A model generated the notes under the pieces. That model did not search any database, was not told the origin of the DNA, and saw only the letters and a program-made list of their open reading frames with translations. Positions 1,098 through 58,012 of a stretch of DNA of 64,000 nt are shown one piece after another. The translations under genes were made by a program, and so were the position numbers. This DNA comes from an uncultured Lachnospiraceae bacterium (GTDB lineage Bacteria > Bacillota > Clostridia > Lachnospirales > Lachnospiraceae), in assembly GCA_947174505.1 (NCBI GenBank), contig CAMWJF010000005.1, forward strand, positions 1-64,000, written 5' to 3'. How positions within the stretch are numbered: position 1 is the stretch's first letter; each line of letters begins with the position of its first letter.

Positions 1098-1214
1098 ATG
1101 ATAGTTCCTTTCTTTTCTCTGGATTTCACTAACTTATCTCCTATTCTATAAGAAAGAGGCAGTAAGGTAAAGGGAAAATTGTGAGAACGGAAGAATTGTG
1201 CTATAGTGATAGCT

Positions 1215-1940
1215 ATGTTGAAAAAAATATGTTATTCGTCTTGGGAACAACCTTTATATATCACGGATCAGGGGAAAATATACGCTGCCTTGCGGGAGCA
1301 GGGCTGCTATGTGCTGCCCTTTCTGCACGGGGACAACCGGGGAGAATCCTTCCCCGGCGCACTCTATGCGGTGGAAAAGCTGGAGGAGATGGATGAGGAA
1401 GCCTTCGATCTGGCGTACCGCCGTCTTGCCGGGCTGCCGTGGGAGATTCTTACAACGGAACGTTGTGCGGTGCGAGAGACGACGGTGGAAGACGTGGACT
1501 GCTTTTATCGGATATATGAGGAGCCTTCCATTACCAAATACATGGAAAATCTTTTTGCGGACAGGGATGAGGAGGTCGCTTACACAAAAGATTATATAGA
1601 GAAGGTATACGCTTTTTACGGGTACGGCATGTGGACGGTGTTGGATAAGGAGGGCGGCGGCGTGATCGGCAGGGCGGGCATAAGCTGGCGGGAAGGGTAT
1701 GACCTGCCGGAGCTGGGCTTTGTGTTCGGTGTGCCGTGGCAGGGGCGGGGGTACGCATACGAGGTGTGCAGCGCGATTCTTGCCTATGCCCGGAAGGAGC
1801 TTCTGATGGAGCGTGTGCAGGCTCTTGTGCAGCCGGGAAATGAGAGATCCCTGAGACTGTGTGAAAAGCTGGGATTTGCGGTTTCCGGGGAGGCGGAGGT
1901 GGATGGGAAAAGGCATCTTCTTCTGACGAAAGACCTGTGA
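1215..1940 (+). CDS. GNAT family N-acetyltransferase with extra N-terminal domain
   Basis: 241 residues from ATG 1215; an in-frame GTG lies 9 bases upstream. Residues from about 80 onward form a GNAT fold like those acting on protein N-termini or small molecules: a 'TERCAVRETTVEDVD' start, a PELGFVFGVPWQGRGYAYEV acetyl-CoA site (R/Q-x-x-G-x-G/A type) and a NERSLRLCEKLGF C-terminal motif. The first 75 residues (YSSWEQPLYITDQGKI...) are a separate short domain I cannot name. Substrate unknown. No strong Shine-Dalgarno sequence, so it may be leaderless or weakly translated. Confidence 0.8.
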   Translation: MLKKICYSSWEQPLYITDQGKIYAALREQGCYVLPFLHGDNRGESFPGALYAVEKLEEMDEEAFDLAYRRLAGLPWEILTTERCAVRETTVEDVDCFYRIYEEPSITKYMENLFADRDEEVAYTKDYIEKVYAFYGYGMWTVLDKEGGGVIGRAGISWREGYDLPELGFVFGVPWQGRGYAYEVCSAILAYARKELLMERVQALVQPGNERSLRLCEKLGFAVSGEAEVDGKRHLLLTKDL

Positions 1941-27158: not shown

Positions 27159-27839
27159 ATGGATAGAGAAAGCAGAGTTGACAATAACAGTCAGCATATG
27201 GAATCAAAGAAAGGGATGAGCACAGTGGCAGCAGAGGAAAAGGATAAGCAGGAAAAAGAGCTGGAAGAACAGGATATGGCACAGCAGGAAGCGGAGGCAG
27301 AGACGCCGCAGGCGGAAATGGCCGGTGAGCCTTCTACAGGAGACGAAGAGAAGGCCGCTAAGAGCGAAAAGAAAGAAAAGAAGAAAAGGGACAAAAAGCA
27401 GGACGCCCTGAAGGAGAAAGTGGAAGAACTGGAAGACCGGGTAAAACGCCAGATGGCGGAGTTTGACAATTTCCGCAAACGTACCGAGAAAGAAAAGACA
27501 GCGATGTTTGAGACGGGCGCAAAGAGCGTGATTGAAAAGATCCTGCCCGTGGTGGATAACTTTGAGAGAGGGCTGGCCAGCGTACCTGAGGAAGAGAAAG
27601 ACGGCGCCATCGCGCAGGGGATGCAGATGATTTATAAGCAGCTCATGACAGAGCTGGAGAATCTGGACGTGAAGCCGATCCCGGCAGTTGGGGAGGAATT
27701 TAACCCCGAGTTCCACAATGCGGTGATGCAGACGGAGAGCGAGGAGTTCGAGTCAGGCGTGATTGCCCAGGAATTGCAGAAGGGTTATACGTACAGGGAC
27801 AGCGTGGTCAGACACAGTATGGTAGCGGTCGTAGAGTGA
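27159..27839 (+). CDS. grpE: nucleotide exchange factor GrpE
   Basis: Up to 226 residues. The N-terminal half is a highly charged Glu/Lys coiled coil; the C-terminal GrpE domain shows 'EFDNFRKRTEKEK', ILPVVDNFERGL, 'LDVKPIPAVGEEFNPEFHNAV' and GYTYRDSVVRHSMV. It releases ADP from DnaK. The start is uncertain: ATG 27159 lacks a clear ribosome site, and 27198 or 27216 are alternatives. The last codons already form one arm of the dispersed element that follows. Confidence 0.93.
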   Translation: MDRESRVDNNSQHMESKKGMSTVAAEEKDKQEKELEEQDMAQQEAEAETPQAEMAGEPSTGDEEKAAKSEKKEKKKRDKKQDALKEKVEELEDRVKRQMAEFDNFRKRTEKEKTAMFETGAKSVIEKILPVVDNFERGLASVPEEEKDGAIAQGMQMIYKQLMTELENLDVKPIPAVGEEFNPEFHNAVMQTESEEFESGVIAQELQKGYTYRDSVVRHSMVAVVE

Positions 27840-27929
27840 GAAGTACTTCTAAAGACGTCCCGCCATAGGACGGGACGCCAAGAAGTACTAAGTCTCACTC
27901 AGGAGAATGCCTGAAAAGAGGCATTCTCC
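27835..27929 (+). repeat. structured dispersed element, family 1, copy A
   Basis: Starts in the last codons of grpE. Stems: GAGTGAGA/TCTCACTC (27835-27842, 27893-27900), AGTACTT/AAGTACT, GTCCCG/CGGGAC around loop CCATAGGA, then a second hairpin GGAGAATGCC-8 nt-GGCATTCTCC (27902-27929). Copy B after trmR keeps the same stems with different bases and the same loop. No T-run; lies between grpE and dnaK, where it could affect RNA stability or partial termination. Confidence 0.8.
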
Positions 27930-27965
27930 GTATATAGCAAAGAACAGTTTCAAAATCATGTATAG

Positions 27966-29858
<1,893 letters not shown>

Positions 29859-31782: not shown

Positions 31783-34700
31783 ATGAAAAGAGCAAAATTG
31801 TTATCCCTGTTTTTGGCAGGTTCCCTGCTGTTCCAGACGGCAGGAATCGATGCAATGGCGACTGCACCGTCTGAGCCTGCTCCGATCAGTGAAACCGTTG
31901 AAGATGTTGGCAGTGATCTTTCTGGACAGCCGGCTGAAGAAGAAAGTGGATTAGATGAATCCACGGAAGAAAGCAATCCTGAACAGCCCTCCGAGGGTGA
32001 GGAGAGTAAGGATCCTGCCGGGGAAGAAGAAACTCCTGAACAGCCCTCTGAGAGTGAAGAGGACAAAGATCCTGCCGGGGAAGAGGAAATTCCCGAGCAG
32101 CCCTCTGAGGATGAAGAGGACAAAGATCCTGCCGGGGAAGAAGAAACTCCCGAGCAGCCCTCCGAAGGAGAAGAGAGTAAGGAGCCTGTTGAAGAGGACG
32201 ACGAAAGCCAGGATTCTGTGTCTGAGAACACTGTCTCAGAGAATACTATATCCGAAAATACGCTTCCCGAGAATGAGACGAGTATTTTCTCTATTTTCCC
32301 GGGTTTGGGTGACAACTATAAATTTTCTTCACAGCAGTTGTCGGATAAACGCGTATTGGCTTCCCATGTAGAAGATGTCGTACAAATCCAATCGGCGGAA
32401 ACCGCCACGATTGAAGACTATCAGGATGCTGAGGGCGAGTATGAGCCTGGTGAGGTCGTGTATCTGGCGGAAACCAGGGAAGAAGCCGAAATGGTTGCTG
32501 AGGCTTTCGGAGGTACGCTGGGCAGTTATGTTTCTGAGGTAGCCGTAATCCGTCTGCCTAAAAAGGCAACTGTAGCGCTGGCGATTGCCGCAGCGTCGGA
32601 ACCGGAGATCAAGCTGCCCGCCGTGTGGCCCAATTATTACAACTACCTGTACACTGACACAAACGCGACGGTTAATCCTGTGCTTCCGGCTGGTTATGAC
32701 GAGCAATGGCATCACGATTATATTGGCACCCGTTACGCTTGGGCTGCCGGATATAAGGGGCAGGGAATCGAAGTCGCTGTCATTGACACGGGTCTTACCA
32801 AGAATCATGAAGATTTAGCGGCGAATGCTCTCAACGGAAAAACTTATGTTGATGGTGCAAACGGAACTGAATTTAATGCAGATAATGATACGCATGGCAC
32901 TCATGTGGCGGGTATCATTGCTGCAGATGATAATAACGTAGGTGTTGTCGGCATCGCGCCAGACGCGCAAGTACGCGGATACAGTGTATTTGCGGCAGAC
33001 GGTAGGTGTACAACCGCTTGGATAATGAGCGCTATTAGGGCTGCCGTTAAAGACGGAAATGATATCATTAACATGAGTCTGGGAAGTCCGAATTATAATA
33101 AGCTCTACGAGGATACCGTTAAAGAGGCATATGAAAAGGGTGTAGCTATTTTTGCTGCTTCTGGTAACGATGATTCAAATGGCAATAATTTCCCTGCTGC
33201 CTACGCCAGTACTATTTCTGTAGGCGCAGTAGACGAGAACAGCACAAGGGCATCTTTTTCGTGCTATGGCAGTACGGTGACACTGTCTTTCCCTGGCGTG
33301 AATATATACTCTACAGTCCCCGACGGTTATGGCAATATGAGTGGTACCAGCATGGCCTGTCCGGCAGCGGCCGGTACGGCGGCGGTTATCCTTTCTGCTA
33401 GAGAAGATATCAAGAGCAAGGAAGGTAAGGGAAGAGTGGATGCACTTGTCTCCGCTATGAAATCTTCCACAACCAAGTGTGCCAACTCCGGCATGGGTGC
33501 AGGCACAACCTACCTGCCTGGTGTGTTGAAGCTTGCTACGGATATGACTGCACCGGATGCGCCAGTCATTGATGTGGTTGATGAAAACACCTATAAGAGA
33601 GGTGCAAATAAGAAGGATTACATAGCAGAGAGCGTCGGTGTGACACTTTCCTCTGCAACTGCCGTGGGTATTGATATTTATTACTCAACAAGCGGTAAGA
33701 CACCGGCTTATAAAAATGGTGTCATCACAAATGCTGACAATGAGGAACCATATCAAATCGGCAGCGAAATAGAATTGGGCGGCGCTAAGAGCATTACCAT
33801 TAAAGCTATCGCTGTCAATCCGATTACTGGTATGGCAAGTAAGGCAGCGTCTAAAACCGTTACACTGACACCGATTCCAAGTGGGGTATCTGTAGAGTCT
33901 GCCAGCAATGTAAAGAGAGTGGTTGCCGGGAAGAGCCTGAAATTCACTGCCACTGTCACTCCTTCTTATGCGATCTCCAACAAGGTTGAATGGTCTGTGG
34001 ATGATAAGGCAAAGGCGGCAGGTATCACAGTATCAAACGGCACGGTTAAAACAAAAAGTGGCACTGCTCCAGGAGAATATACGGTTACTGCTAGGGCTGT
34101 CGGAAATGATGGGATAAAATATGATGGTGCAAAGGATGATTTCAAATTTACTGTAATCGAGACATCTGCCGTAACGAAGGTTGCATTTATTGATCCTACA
34201 ACCTCAAAAGCGCCTAAGGCAAAGAGCATAAAGACAAGCGACAACAAAACAGCGGATGACGACAATGCGGTCATTGATTTAGGGAAATATCTTACAGTAA
34301 CTACGACAGACACAAATAAAGTGAAGAAGGATATCACTGGCGAGTCTGCCCTTGCAGAAGTGGTCTGGTCCAGCAGTAACGTTAAGATTGCCACAGTCTC
34401 TGACGCTGGTGTTATCTCTGCCGTTGCACCCGGTAAAGCGACCATCAAGGCGACTTCCAACGACGGCGGTAACAAGAGTGCATCCTACAGTGTGACAGTC
34501 GTACAGCCCGTTACAGAGATTATCATAGCCGGTTCTCCCAAAGTGGCTGCCGGAAAAGGAATTGCGCTTACGGCAAAGGTATTACCTGCAAATGCCAGCA
34601 ACAAGAAAGTGGAGTGGAGTGTAGCTGGCGACGGGAAAGTAAAGATCGGCAAGGGCAACGGTAAGATAACCACGACAAAGGACGCCAAAGGAACATACAC

Positions 34701-35799
34701 GGTAACAGCTATTGCGGCAGATAAGCTTGGTGTTGCCAAAGCAGCCACGTATGAGATCACGATTACGGATGAGGAGATCACTAAAATTATCCTCAACGAG
34801 AGTAAGCTGACCCTGTTCCCACCTAAGACAAGCGCAACAAAAAATACAACAGCTACCCTAACTGCCACTGTGACGGGGAAAAAGGGTGGCGCAACGCAAA
34901 CCCTGACTGATCCTTTGATCACTTGGACCAGTAGCGCACCTTCCATAGCCTCCGTGGATAAAGACGGTAATATTACTGCAAAATCGTCCGGCAAAGCGAC
35001 CATCACCTGTGCCGCTACTGACGGCAGTAATAAAAAGGCAACCTGTGCGGTTACTGTCAGCGCACCTATGTCCAGACTGGTGATCGGTCCTACAGACGGA
35101 AGCGCGGGCTGTATTGCCGTCGGCAAAAAGACTAAAATGGTAGCCAAATACTATAGTAATTATGGAAAGCCAACAAGCAATAAAATCAATTGGGAAATAG
35201 TGCCAGGCTCATGCAAGAATGTAGCTGCAGATAAGGTATCTATTGACAAAAATGGTACAGTTTCCGTAGCAAAGGATGCTACTTATGGCTCCTTCGCTGT
35301 TCGCGCAACAGCACAAGATGGCAGTGGGGTAACTTCAAACCAGTATACGCTGGCTATCTGGCCCAGCTTTGTTGCGGCAAGGCTTAAAAAAGTTGTTACT
35401 ACAGATGATAATGGTAATATAAATGGATATCATTTTATAGTGGAGGCAACTGACGAAAAGGATAATAAAGGAAAACCTGATTGGGACGAGGCAATGATGC
35501 TTCCCAGCTTTTATTGCACAGCTACAGTGTCAGGCCCCAAAAACATAGGACTGTATAAGGACTACCTTGTGATTGATGGTGCGTCTTACGCATTATATGA
35601 TCCGCAGCCCCTTAAAGCAACCGATAAACAGTTAGATTATCTTCCGCCTAGAGGGAATGTACAACTATATACAAACGAATGTGATAAAATAACCTTGACT
35701 GTAGCGCTTAAGGATGGTTCTAATCTTAAGGCAACGGCAAGTATGTATGCTATTCAATATCAAAATACCGCTGGATATTATGTAATTGGATATTATTAA
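31783..35799 (+). CDS. secreted S8 (subtilisin) serine protease with Ig-like repeats
   Basis: 1338 residues. Signal peptide (1-26, ending IDAMA). Residues 67-142 are four 19-residue acidic repeats, then four VSENT-like pentapeptides. A prodomain-like segment (about 224-292) is followed by the peptidase S8 domain with catalytic Asp335 (AVIDTGL), His371 (THGTHVAG), Asn462 and Ser523 (SGTSMACPAAAG). From about 600 to the end come Ig-like/BIG2 domains, a chitobiase-like segment (YYSTSGKTPAYKNG) and Lys-rich beta strands. No LPxTG or anchor is visible, so it may be released or held by the acidic stalk. Substrate unknown. Confidence 0.92.
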   Translation: MKRAKLLSLFLAGSLLFQTAGIDAMATAPSEPAPISETVEDVGSDLSGQPAEEESGLDESTEESNPEQPSEGEESKDPAGEEETPEQPSESEEDKDPAGEEEIPEQPSEDEEDKDPAGEEETPEQPSEGEESKEPVEEDDESQDSVSENTVSENTISENTLPENETSIFSIFPGLGDNYKFSSQQLSDKRVLASHVEDVVQIQSAETATIEDYQDAEGEYEPGEVVYLAETREEAEMVAEAFGGTLGSYVSEVAVIRLPKKATVALAIAAASEPEIKLPAVWPNYYNYLYTDTNATVNPVLPAGYDEQWHHDYIGTRYAWAAGYKGQGIEVAVIDTGLTKNHEDLAANALNGKTYVDGANGTEFNADNDTHGTHVAGIIAADDNNVGVVGIAPDAQVRGYSVFAADGRCTTAWIMSAIRAAVKDGNDIINMSLGSPNYNKLYEDTVKEAYEKGVAIFAASGNDDSNGNNFPAAYASTISVGAVDENSTRASFSCYGSTVTLSFPGVNIYSTVPDGYGNMSGTSMACPAAAGTAAVILSAREDIKSKEGKGRVDALVSAMKSSTTKCANSGMGAGTTYLPGVLKLATDMTAPDAPVIDVVDENTYKRGANKKDYIAESVGVTLSSATAVGIDIYYSTSGKTPAYKNGVITNADNEEPYQIGSEIELGGAKSITIKAIAVNPITGMASKAASKTVTLTPIPSGVSVESASNVKRVVAGKSLKFTATVTPSYAISNKVEWSVDDKAKAAGITVSNGTVKTKSGTAPGEYTVTARAVGNDGIKYDGAKDDFKFTVIETSAVTKVAFIDPTTSKAPKAKSIKTSDNKTADDDNAVIDLGKYLTVTTTDTNKVKKDITGESALAEVVWSSSNVKIATVSDAGVISAVAPGKATIKATSNDGGNKSASYSVTVVQPVTEIIIAGSPKVAAGKGIALTAKVLPANASNKKVEWSVAGDGKVKIGKGNGKITTTKDAKGTYTVTAIAADKLGVAKAATYEITITDEEITKIILNESKLTLFPPKTSATKNTTATLTATVTGKKGGATQTLTDPLITWTSSAPSIASVDKDGNITAKSSGKATITCAATDGSNKKATCAVTVSAPMSRLVIGPTDGSAGCIAVGKKTKMVAKYYSNYGKPTSNKINWEIVPGSCKNVAADKVSIDKNGTVSVAKDATYGSFAVRATAQDGSGVTSNQYTLAIWPSFVAARLKKVVTTDDNGNINGYHFIVEATDEKDNKGKPDWDEAMMLPSFYCTATVSGPKNIGLYKDYLVIDGASYALYDPQPLKATDKQLDYLPPRGNVQLYTNECDKITLTVALKDGSNLKATASMYAIQYQNTAGYYVIGYY
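31981..32208 (+). repeat. 57-bp tandem repeat inside the protease gene (4 copies)
   Basis: Four units of 57 bases encode EQPSEGEESKDPAGEEETP and variants. Differences are mostly conservative (S/D, T/I), and the fourth unit is the most diverged. Such a repeat can expand or contract by slippage and change stalk length. Confidence 0.85.
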
Positions 35800-56864: not shown

Positions 56865-57269
56865 ATGAGTATAAAAGAAGTCATCGGTTCCACGGCGGAA
56901 CTGATTATCAAAATAGCGCTTTTGCTTTTTGCCGCCACCTATATTATCAAGGCATCCACGGCAGCCTATGATTACGGTTACCGCATATTCACCGAGGAGC
57001 CGGTGGCCATCGGGGAGGGCAGGACGATCAGCGTCAGCGTGGAAGATCCGGTTTCCGTCATGGAGGTAGGCGAAATGCTGGAGGAGCGGGGACTGATCCG
57101 CGATGCGAAGCTCTTTCTGTTACAGGAGCTTTTGTCGGAAAATCACGGTAAGCTGCAGCCCGGGATCTATGACCTGAGCACCGCCATGACGGCTGAGGAG
57201 ATGATGGACGTGATGGCGGCGGATGCCCCGGAGGAGGGCGAAGAGGATGCGGAAGGAGAGTCAAAGTGA
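56865..57269 (+). CDS. MltG-like N-terminal protein (short, no catalytic domain)
   Basis: 134 residues from ATG 56865, preceded by GGAGG. The open frame extends to 56727 only through the hairpin array. One membrane helix (about 13-30), then a small domain resembling the LysM-like N-terminal part of endolytic transglycosylase MltG/YceG ('ISVSVEDPVSVMEVGEMLEERGLIRDAKLF', 'LQPGIYDLSTAMTAEEMMDVM') and an acidic tail. The MltG catalytic domain is absent. Position before trmR and U32 equals that of mltG in Bacillus, so it is probably a reduced version. Stop overlaps the trmR start. Confidence 0.8.
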   Translation: MSIKEVIGSTAELIIKIALLLFAATYIIKASTAAYDYGYRIFTEEPVAIGEGRTISVSVEDPVSVMEVGEMLEERGLIRDAKLFLLQELLSENHGKLQPGIYDLSTAMTAEEMMDVMAADAPEEGEEDAEGESK

Positions 57270-57931
57270 TTTTGGGCGAGCGTATGGACACCTTTCTCGC
57301 TTCTCTTGACGCGGGCAACACCCCATTTCTGGATCAGATAGAACGTGAAGCTTTAAAAACCAATGTGCCGGTTATACGCACGCAGACGCAGGGACTGCTA
57401 CGGTTCCTGCTTGCGGTGCGAAGGCCCATGTCCATTTTGGAGGTGGGATGTGCCATTGGTTTTTCTGCGCTTCTGATGAGCGAGTATGCCCCGGAGGGGT
57501 GCAAAATTACCACCATAGAAAAATATGAGAAGCGAATCCCCGTGGCGAGGGAAAATTTCGCGCGGGCCGGCAAGGAAGACGTTATCACGCTTCTGGAAGG
57601 CGACGCGGCGAATATTCTGAAAGAACTTGCGGGACCTTATGACTTTATTTTTATGGACGCGGCAAAGGGGCAGTATATCCACTTTCTGCCGGAAATTCTG
57701 CGGCTCCTTGCGCCCGGCGGACTTCTGGTGTCCGACAACGTGCTGCAGGACGGCGATATTCTGGAATCCCGGTTTGCCGTGGAGAGAAGAAACCGTACGA
57801 TTCACAGCAGAATGCGGGAGTACCTTTACGAACTGACACATCATGAGGCGCTGCGGACGGTGGTGCTGCCTGTGGGGGATGGCGTAACGGTCAGCTGTGT
57901 GACAAAAAGTTCTAAAGACATCGAGCCATAG
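57266..57931 (+). CDS. trmR: O-methyltransferase (TrmR-like, tRNA 5-hydroxyuridine)
   Basis: 221 residues from GTG 57266, with GGAG 7 bases upstream, overlapping the previous stop by 4 bases. Class I SAM fold: ILEVGCAIGFSALLM, 'ITTIEKYEKRIPVARENF', DFIFMDAAKGQYIHFLP and GGLLVSDNVLQDG. Gene order with the U32 gene matches the Bacillus trmR-trhP set that makes 5-methoxyuridine in tRNA. The natural end seems to be near VSCVTK: the last eight residues and the stop codon are encoded by dispersed element B. Confidence 0.88.
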   Translation: MILGERMDTFLASLDAGNTPFLDQIEREALKTNVPVIRTQTQGLLRFLLAVRRPMSILEVGCAIGFSALLMSEYAPEGCKITTIEKYEKRIPVARENFARAGKEDVITLLEGDAANILKELAGPYDFIFMDAAKGQYIHFLPEILRLLAPGGLLVSDNVLQDGDILESRFAVERRNRTIHSRMREYLYELTHHEALRTVVLPVGDGVTVSCVTKSSKDIEP

Positions 57932-57992
57932 GACGCGGTGCCGGGAACTTCTAAATGTCACACTGGAGAATGCCGTACAACAGGTATTCTCC
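57897..57992 (+). repeat. structured dispersed element, family 1, copy B
   Basis: Overlaps the end of trmR. Stems: GTGTGACA/TGTCACAC (57897-57904, 57956-57963), AAGTTC/GAACTT, ATCGAG/CGCGGT around loop CCATAGGA, then GGAGAATGCC-8 nt-GGTATTCTCC (57965-57992). The trmR stop TAG lies in the conserved loop. Many stem bases differ from copy A yet pairing is kept. Confidence 0.8.
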
Positions 57993-58012
57993 GAAGGTGG
58001 AGGGATGATAGG

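Follow-up and report, generated by a model that had tools for sequence, protein, structure and literature searches.

The window analysed here, that is, the whole 64,000-nucleotide stretch of Lachnospiraceae DNA, contains two copies of a structured repeat, each following a gene on the forward strand. Copy A (27834..27931, +), identified by the alignment and a covariance model match of 119.2 bits, lies in the gap between an upstream open reading frame of 226 aa (27159..27839, +), whose C-terminus is in register with that of its congeners, and a downstream one (27984..29858, +); from their sequences, we take these to be grpE and dnaK. Copy B (57897..57994, +; 89.8 bits) follows an O-methyltransferase gene (57266..57931, +; PF01596 at residues 18-209 of 221). 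These are the only convincing model matches within the window. Both copies had been proposed in the original prediction, and their presence was confirmed, including the arms, CCATAGGA loop and second hairpin described there. The prediction also placed them at the 3' edge of a coding sequence; they do lie at a coding end, but the upstream coding sequence actually stops inside the element in both cases. The TGA of grpE (27837..27839, +) falls within the 5' arm of the outermost stem of copy A, and the TAG of the methyltransferase gene (57929..57931, +) falls in the apical loop CCATAGGA of copy B. Elsewhere in the window, a 1338-aa ORF (31783-35799) resembles, by eye, a subtilisin-type protease with Ig-like repeats.

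From 5' to 3', the element consists of stem P1 (8 bp), stem P2 (8 bp in copy A), an asymmetric internal loop (UAAAGA/CCAA) and P3, whose loop of three bases, with a bulged A, is closed by CC/GG. One base after the P1 3' arm, a separate 10-bp hairpin (GGAGAATGCC/GGCATTCTCC) begins. In copy A, folding and covariation assign P1 to GAGTGAGA (27834..27841, +) and TCTCACTC (27893..27900, +), and folding assigns P2 to AGTACTTC (27842..27849, +) and GAAGTACT (27882..27889, +). Between the P2 arms lies the apical module (27850..27881, +; fold and alignment), a type 1 apex with the internal loop TAAAGA/CCAA, P3 (CGTCCCG/CGGGACG), the CC/GG pairs, the loop ATA and the bulged A, while the 3' hairpin (27902..27929, +; sequence and fold) has no U-tract on its 3' side. 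In copy B, P1 is formed, according to the fold, by GTGTGACA (57897..57904, +) and TGTCACAC (57956..57963, +), and the 3' hairpin by GGAGAATGCC and GGTATTCTCC (57965..57992, +; sequence and fold). The differences between A and B preserve pairing, as had been claimed, with the qualification that the count of five out of six pairs for ATCGAG/CGCGGT includes one G-U. The folding z-scores are -10.3 for copy A and -5.7 for copy B, and two occurrences of the pattern TTCTAAAGACN6CCATAGGA were found in the window, where 0.08 would be expected.

The element is far from being confined to these two sites: the source genome (4.26 Mb, 94% complete) contains approx. 125 copies. A pattern search allowing up to three mismatches gave 49 matches in the genome vs. 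six for the backward control. The covariance model was built from 27 copies chosen for their resemblance to A and B; with it, 146 matches were obtained at E <= 1, of which 125 were at E <= 2.2e-4 (150 candidates scored). This search returned further copies with conserved pairing; neither of the outcomes named beforehand as contrary to the prediction, a lack of further copies and a loss of pairing in them, appeared. The best identity between copies within the genome is 95.9% and the median 86.6%; therefore, there has been no burst of recent copies. With the same model, matches were found in 31 of 36 congeners; those that gave none are G004, G014, G019, G021 and G029, some of which are incomplete, and the highest abundance is at least 67 copies. 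None of 24 genomes of the same order that belong to other families matched, which serves as the negative control for a model built from preselected copies. A sample of 200 genomes from the family contained 11 with matches at E <= 0.001, namely the own genome, one congener and nine members of other genera. All these copy counts (own genome, congeners and the 200-genome set) are minimum values, as few candidates were scored in each genome. Of 21 distant matches inspected, from eight genomes, most share the arrangement of the element but have other apices; a frame of 80 codons or more ends between 31 bases inside and 5 bases before the match start in 17 of the 21. Among the matches listed, the carriers are Lachnospiraceae isolates and metagenome bins. 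As had been anticipated, no named family was recognised: no Rfam 15 family other than tRNA reached its gathering score on the window, and five loci examined at E <= 5 gave no sensible match. Neither viral contigs (exact pattern) nor plasmids and phages (blastn with copy A) yielded a match, and a literature search, for which subscription papers were mostly beyond reach, found no such repeat family.

The family is also modular. In the alignments and end profiles, the letters of P1, the outermost stem, vary while its pairing is kept. Most of the 33 lower-scoring copies inspected combine the same P1/P2 and 3' hairpin with a different apex (e.g., UAAAG-CUCAGCAGCAGAGGCUGCUUCGCU-AAG), and extra hairpins are inserted in some copies between P2 and P1 or beside P3. 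Such modularity varies between related genomes, as seen from the inserted hairpin modules and from one pair of loci (L076 and L068), whose flanks are 98.5/99.8% identical and whose apices differ by a whole hairpin. Several individual arrangements were also observed. At one locus (L117:4138-4535), three elements lie in tandem approx. 145 bases apart; the first two are nearly identical and possess an additional 3' hairpin (GTCACAGC-AGA-GCTGTGAC). Each of the units has its own TAG, an indication that the stop at the left end is part of the element. At another (L147), a degenerate array of 3'-hairpin arms (GAGAGGYATTCTCYGCRYGGGTTGAGAGAGGTT...) follows a single element downstream of the match at 1186-1283 (-). 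In several of the own copies (L193, L175 and L223 among them), the last hairpin is followed by a common 3' extension, GATTTGAGATTCCGC, which is probably another optional module. In five copies (L021, L002, L195, L023 and L007), the P1 5' arm is duplicated just upstream (e.g., GCGTGAGAAA followed by CGCGAAAAG), so that the 3' arm of P1 could pair with either. Five further copies (L009, L028, L207, L196 and L184) lie after genes with similar, GTCAAAGG-like ends, such as those of sugar ABC permeases; it seems that insertions recur in paralogous operons.

The most distinctive property of the family is its position relative to stop codons. For this analysis, 105 of the 146 matches were used, the lowest ones and seven of 45-48 bits being left out, and 104 were located. 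The longest upstream frame (at least 100 codons) ends, in sense, between 34 bases inside (-34) and 5 bases before (+5) the match start in 90 of these 104 copies; several of the others close a shorter frame. In the antisense control, seven of the 104 fall in this range and 24 in the wider range of -60 to +5, the latter because convergent genes also extend into the element. Of 116 copies testable in other genomes, 81 lie within the narrower range, with seven in antisense, where some copies lay too close to an edge to count. The sense ends occupy discrete positions: +3 (25 copies, 18 of them reading TAACAR), 0 (22 copies; 15 TAG and 7 TAA), -5 (18 copies, with TGA in P1), -18 (five copies, with TAA after P2) and -34 (six copies, with TAG in the loop), and ends at +4, +12 and +21 belong mostly, by eye, to copies with a repeated P1 arm. 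All three stop codons are used (TAA 45, TAG 32 and TGA 24). Frame closure is incomplete in some copies, GTGA being found in P1 of 68 and CCATAGG in 19 of the 104. A simple YAR target was rejected for the +3 class, since its 25 copies compare with only 21 of 687 YAR sites at that offset among element-free gene ends, whereas the 22 copies of class 0 are approximately as frequent as YAR sites there predict (209/687). At element-free gene ends, the stop is followed by CAR in 10 of 301 cases.

Limited room was considered as a cause of docking but gained no support: docking persists in 15 of the 17 copies that are followed by more than 80 free bases, and crowding is therefore not what mainly drives it. 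With all convergent neighbours counted, the figure is 29 of 32, though most of these are close. Among convergent neighbours, 14 of 17 end from 60 bases inside to 28 beyond the right end of the element, as if it were docked from both sides. The next gene is co-directional for 86 of 103 copies, often within 45 bases, compared with a background of 120/148.

Random truncation of genes by a stop-carrying element might be thought to generate such discrete positions; however, the stops of orthologues speak against it. The orthologue set comprised 60 queries, including ten in which the same place had been fetched twice, the removal of which left 41 rows. In 31 of these rows, the orthologue, in which no element was recognised, has its stop 0-1 codon away from the corresponding position, where some rows repeat one locus and at least seven comparison sequences show an element or a remnant (L028 twice, L061, L104, L130 twice and L067). 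In the seven rows of the -34 class, the native stop lies 6-13 codons further on, which is approximately what the 11 codons of the element replace. Moreover, the last Pfam domain ends no more than 15 residues from the protein end in 11 of 20 upstream proteins. The gene pairs flanking copies include rpoB/rpoC, dnaN/S4 protein, cytidylate kinase/LytB and grpE/dnaK. Judging from such comparisons, the checked upstream proteins look full length or nearly so.

Occupancy differs between congeners, as is best seen at grpE. Of the 41 genomes of the genus, the own one among them, 38 yielded a GrpE, and 30 grpE-dnaK gaps could be compared. A model match is present only in the own genome and at two other loci (L234 and L238), whose elements have another apex and another 3' hairpin than copy A. 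Remnants can be discerned by eye at L228 and L242, and perhaps at L248 and L256, whereas 20 of the 30 loci have a gap of 21-91 bases with nothing recognised. Three loci (L235, L245 and L252) have longer gaps with other sequence; at the first of these (genome G002), a copy detected by the model sits one gene earlier, just before grpE. The 320-base grpE-dnaK gap of L235 itself contains a long imperfect inverted repeat (GAGCGAAAATGATTTCTA...TAGAAATCATTTCCACTC), a P1/P2-like stem with a very large apex and no model match. In total, 52 empty-like locus pairs were found, some of which still hold remnants. No target-site duplication was seen by eye in empty-site pairs, most of which are only 75-90% identical.

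Covariation within the family is strong. In the 27 model copies, 95.9% of pair cells are standard pairs, and changes on both sides occur in 21 of 35 pairs (85 cells, compared with a shuffled mean of 23.7; none of 500 shuffles reached this value); it should be noted that these copies fit the model by construction, having been picked by their similarity to A and B. Together with the excess of pattern matches over expectation and over the backward control, the excess over shuffles upholds the earlier view that the repeat does not arise by chance. The manner in which pairs are broken is informative. Among broken helix pairs with Watson-Crick neighbours in 235 aligned copies, 100 are G-U and 112 A-C (binomial p 0.45), where the own-copy set includes a few places twice and identical rows were counted once. 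The tRNAs of the own genome gave G-U:A-C ratios of 26:0 in bracketed stems and 19:1 in fixed stems; these controls are small, the fixed stems include noisy T-arm registers and the bracketed ones may omit mismatches by design. In 60 orthologous pairs, 157 double Watson-Crick changes were counted vs. single changes of 39 G-U, 41 A-C and 13 other, and orthologous copies keep their pairing, with a helix identity of 0.857 against 0.794 for random copies. Because A-C is as common as G-U, in contrast to the tRNAs of this genome, conservation probably does not act on pairing in the sense RNA. We read the pairing as maintained by turnover, copy replacement or a DNA-level fold, with an additional RNA effect possible. 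Thus, of the two options in the original prediction, that of a selected RNA structure is weakened by this parity, and that of a mobile palindromic unit is supported by the approx. 125 copies, the presence and absence of the element between grpE and dnaK, the empty sites and the exchange of modules. Both the parity and the docking at stop codons go beyond that first reading, in which the docking was not visible.

Computation has established the family, its fold, its docking, the near-intact upstream proteins and the polymorphism among congeners. To account for them, we lean, with some reserve, towards a new Lachnospiraceae family of non-autonomous, modular, palindromic mobile elements of the BOX/REP kind, which dock at stop codons. 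Such copies would spread as DNA, in the form of a hairpin or cruciform, by means of some factor. As the sequences show, a frame entering the element is soon closed at one of several fixed points within or beside the left arm (TAR or TAACAR shortly before P1, TGA in P1, TAA after P2 or TAG in some type 1 loops), so that the upstream protein remains near full length, and the start region of the next gene comes after the element. Once in place, the element would be transcribed through as a folded spacer between cistrons; this transparency, suggested by the sites inside core operons and the lack of a U-tract, might explain why it is tolerated even between rpoB and rpoC, as it would not be a terminator. 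What keeps the arms paired would be mobility, copy replacement or templated repair, with selection on the sense RNA playing a smaller part. Against this mobile reading, no copy was caught moving, neither a target-site duplication nor an autonomous partner was found, the identities within the genome show no recent burst, and the own genome has neither Y1 transposase nor reverse transcriptase. Docking is also not easily explained by ordinary DNA targeting. In addition, orthologous copies are somewhat more alike than random ones and remain paired, which selection after insertion would equally produce, and frames on the other strand also enter the element, 24 of 104 ending from 60 bases inside to 5 before its right edge.

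A cis-acting mRNA element, in which structure after the stop slows the terminating ribosome, blocks 3' exonucleases or sets operon stoichiometry in a REP- or SRPS-like manner and which was duplicated and selected, appears a less likely but serious alternative. The sense orientation and the contact with the terminating ribosome in nearly all copies, the covariation, the pairing retained in orthologous copies and the frequent, close co-directional next gene all agree with it, and precedents exist in the available parts of reports on REPs less than 16 nt from a stop (PMC12306157) and on Clostridium 3' stem-loops (PMC4423207, PMC8219983). However, G-U is not favoured over A-C either among the aligned copies or among single orthologous changes, the co-directional share is approximately that of the background, the copy number among congeners varies from none to dozens and, where frames stop at -34, the ribosome would unfold much of the structure. 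An intrinsic terminator or attenuator family, suggested by two strong hairpins after coding sequences, is barely plausible: in the ten bases after the last hairpin, the mean T fraction of own copies is 0.27, a T-run of at least four occurs in three of 98 copies and in none of 16 with a convergent neighbour, and copies sit between rpoB and rpoC and between grpE and dnaK. Ideas of a kink-turn, a riboswitch, a CsrA site or a selenocysteine element were dropped by eye.

Other alternatives concern the way in which the element would move. A classical MITE, belonging to a DD(E/D) insertion sequence and concentrated at gene ends by selection, would share with the repeat its short, palindromic, non-coding, dispersed and polymorphic nature, but it is very improbable given that P1 keeps its pairing rather than its sequence, unlike conserved terminal repeats, that no duplication is seen by eye at empty sites, that mainly one orientation occurs and that, in the own stretches searched, only one of 40 half motifs is solitary; the last result also led to the rejection of an autonomous element with split halves. 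The Y1 transposase (PF01797) has no match in the own genome. Among 12 genomes, it is present in three of seven carriers (G003, G025 and G015) and in none of five genomes without copies; it is missing in carriers G000, G034, G002 and G016, and therefore it is not required for abundance. This distribution is worth a second look, yet it cannot explain the own genome. No reverse transcriptase was found in the copy-rich genomes, namely the own genome (94% complete), G002, G003 and G025 (the last two 84-85% complete), and across the 12 genomes, this enzyme occurs in three of seven carriers and three of five genomes without copies. Both enzymes were thus rejected as mobilisers in the own genome. This bears on an insertion guided by translation termination, in which the element would enter or be copied where ribosomes stop (e.g., via an mRNA or cDNA intermediate) and docking would be a property of the insertion step. 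The use of all three stops, the sense orientation, the persistence of docking where there is room, the different versions at the grpE end in several congeners and the size of the +3 class relative to CAR after the stop at element-free ends fit such a mechanism. Nonetheless, we regard it as unlikely, since the four genomes just named yielded no reverse transcriptase, no intermediate was seen and docking may come from selection against other sites. The bolder form of this idea, that the element is directed to sites of ribosome stopping and not to a DNA motif, inserts in sense, closes the frame by means of its own stops and so spreads harmlessly through essential operons, is speculative and only slightly easier to credit.

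Small interspersed repeats of bacteria have long been debated as junk or regulators. Within this context, the present family occupies the coding ends of approx. ninety genes in one genome, rpoB and grpE included, and alters core-operon spacers in one of the major families of the gut. It also separates covariation from RNA function, and thus covariation alone is no proof of a functional RNA. Furthermore, it makes testable whether insertion guided by translation or selection alone can place a repeat so precisely; if insertion is indeed steered by termination, the element could spread through essential operons without damage.

Among known systems, BOX of Streptococcus pneumoniae appears the nearest in kind, as both are dispersed, modular, foldable and non-coding, with internal modules gained or lost; in the part of its description available to us, 58 coding sequences overlap a BOX, 36 of them at their extreme 3' end with a stop supplied by BOX and without strong evidence of truncation, and BOX occurs in several contexts, with an excess between convergent genes (PMC3049150). 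The present copies are set apart, by description, in that nearly all lie in sense at a coding end, their co-directional share equals the background and the pairing of P1, not its letters, is kept. REP/BIME sequences likewise are high-copy extragenic palindromes, some of them near stops. According to the accessible portions of two reports, REPs measure 20-40 bp, most with a GTAG or CGTC tag (PMC3733652), and, in E. coli, 446 of 4,072 lie within 15 nt of a stop, where those closer than 16 nt can lower translation (PMC12306157, citing an earlier study). By contrast, the present unit is approx. 98 nt long with two hairpins, no GTAG/CGTC tag was seen in the alignments and end profiles, and the own genome lacks the Y1 transposase of RAYT-mobilised REPs. 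In addition, REPs occur in both orientations relative to genes, unlike the sense docking of the present copies (90/104 vs. 7/104 in antisense in the same range and 24 in the wider one). The SRPS of Clostridium operons, 3' stem-loops that set operon stoichiometry, resemble the element in lying at intercistronic 3' ends, but the available parts of their descriptions present them as stem-loops of single operons and not as one recurrent repeat family (PMC4423207, PMC8219983). The repeat is also reminiscent of another system in its conservation of structure over sequence, variable apex and location at the gene 3' end. These are features of integron attC sites, in which structure is conserved more than sequence and the apical part is variable; however, no cassette arrays were seen, chromosomal orthologues without the element exist, and the R-box letters are not evident by eye. 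The family thus differs from its known relatives in its near-universal, mainly one-way docking at stop codons, combined with pairing that shows no preference for G-U.
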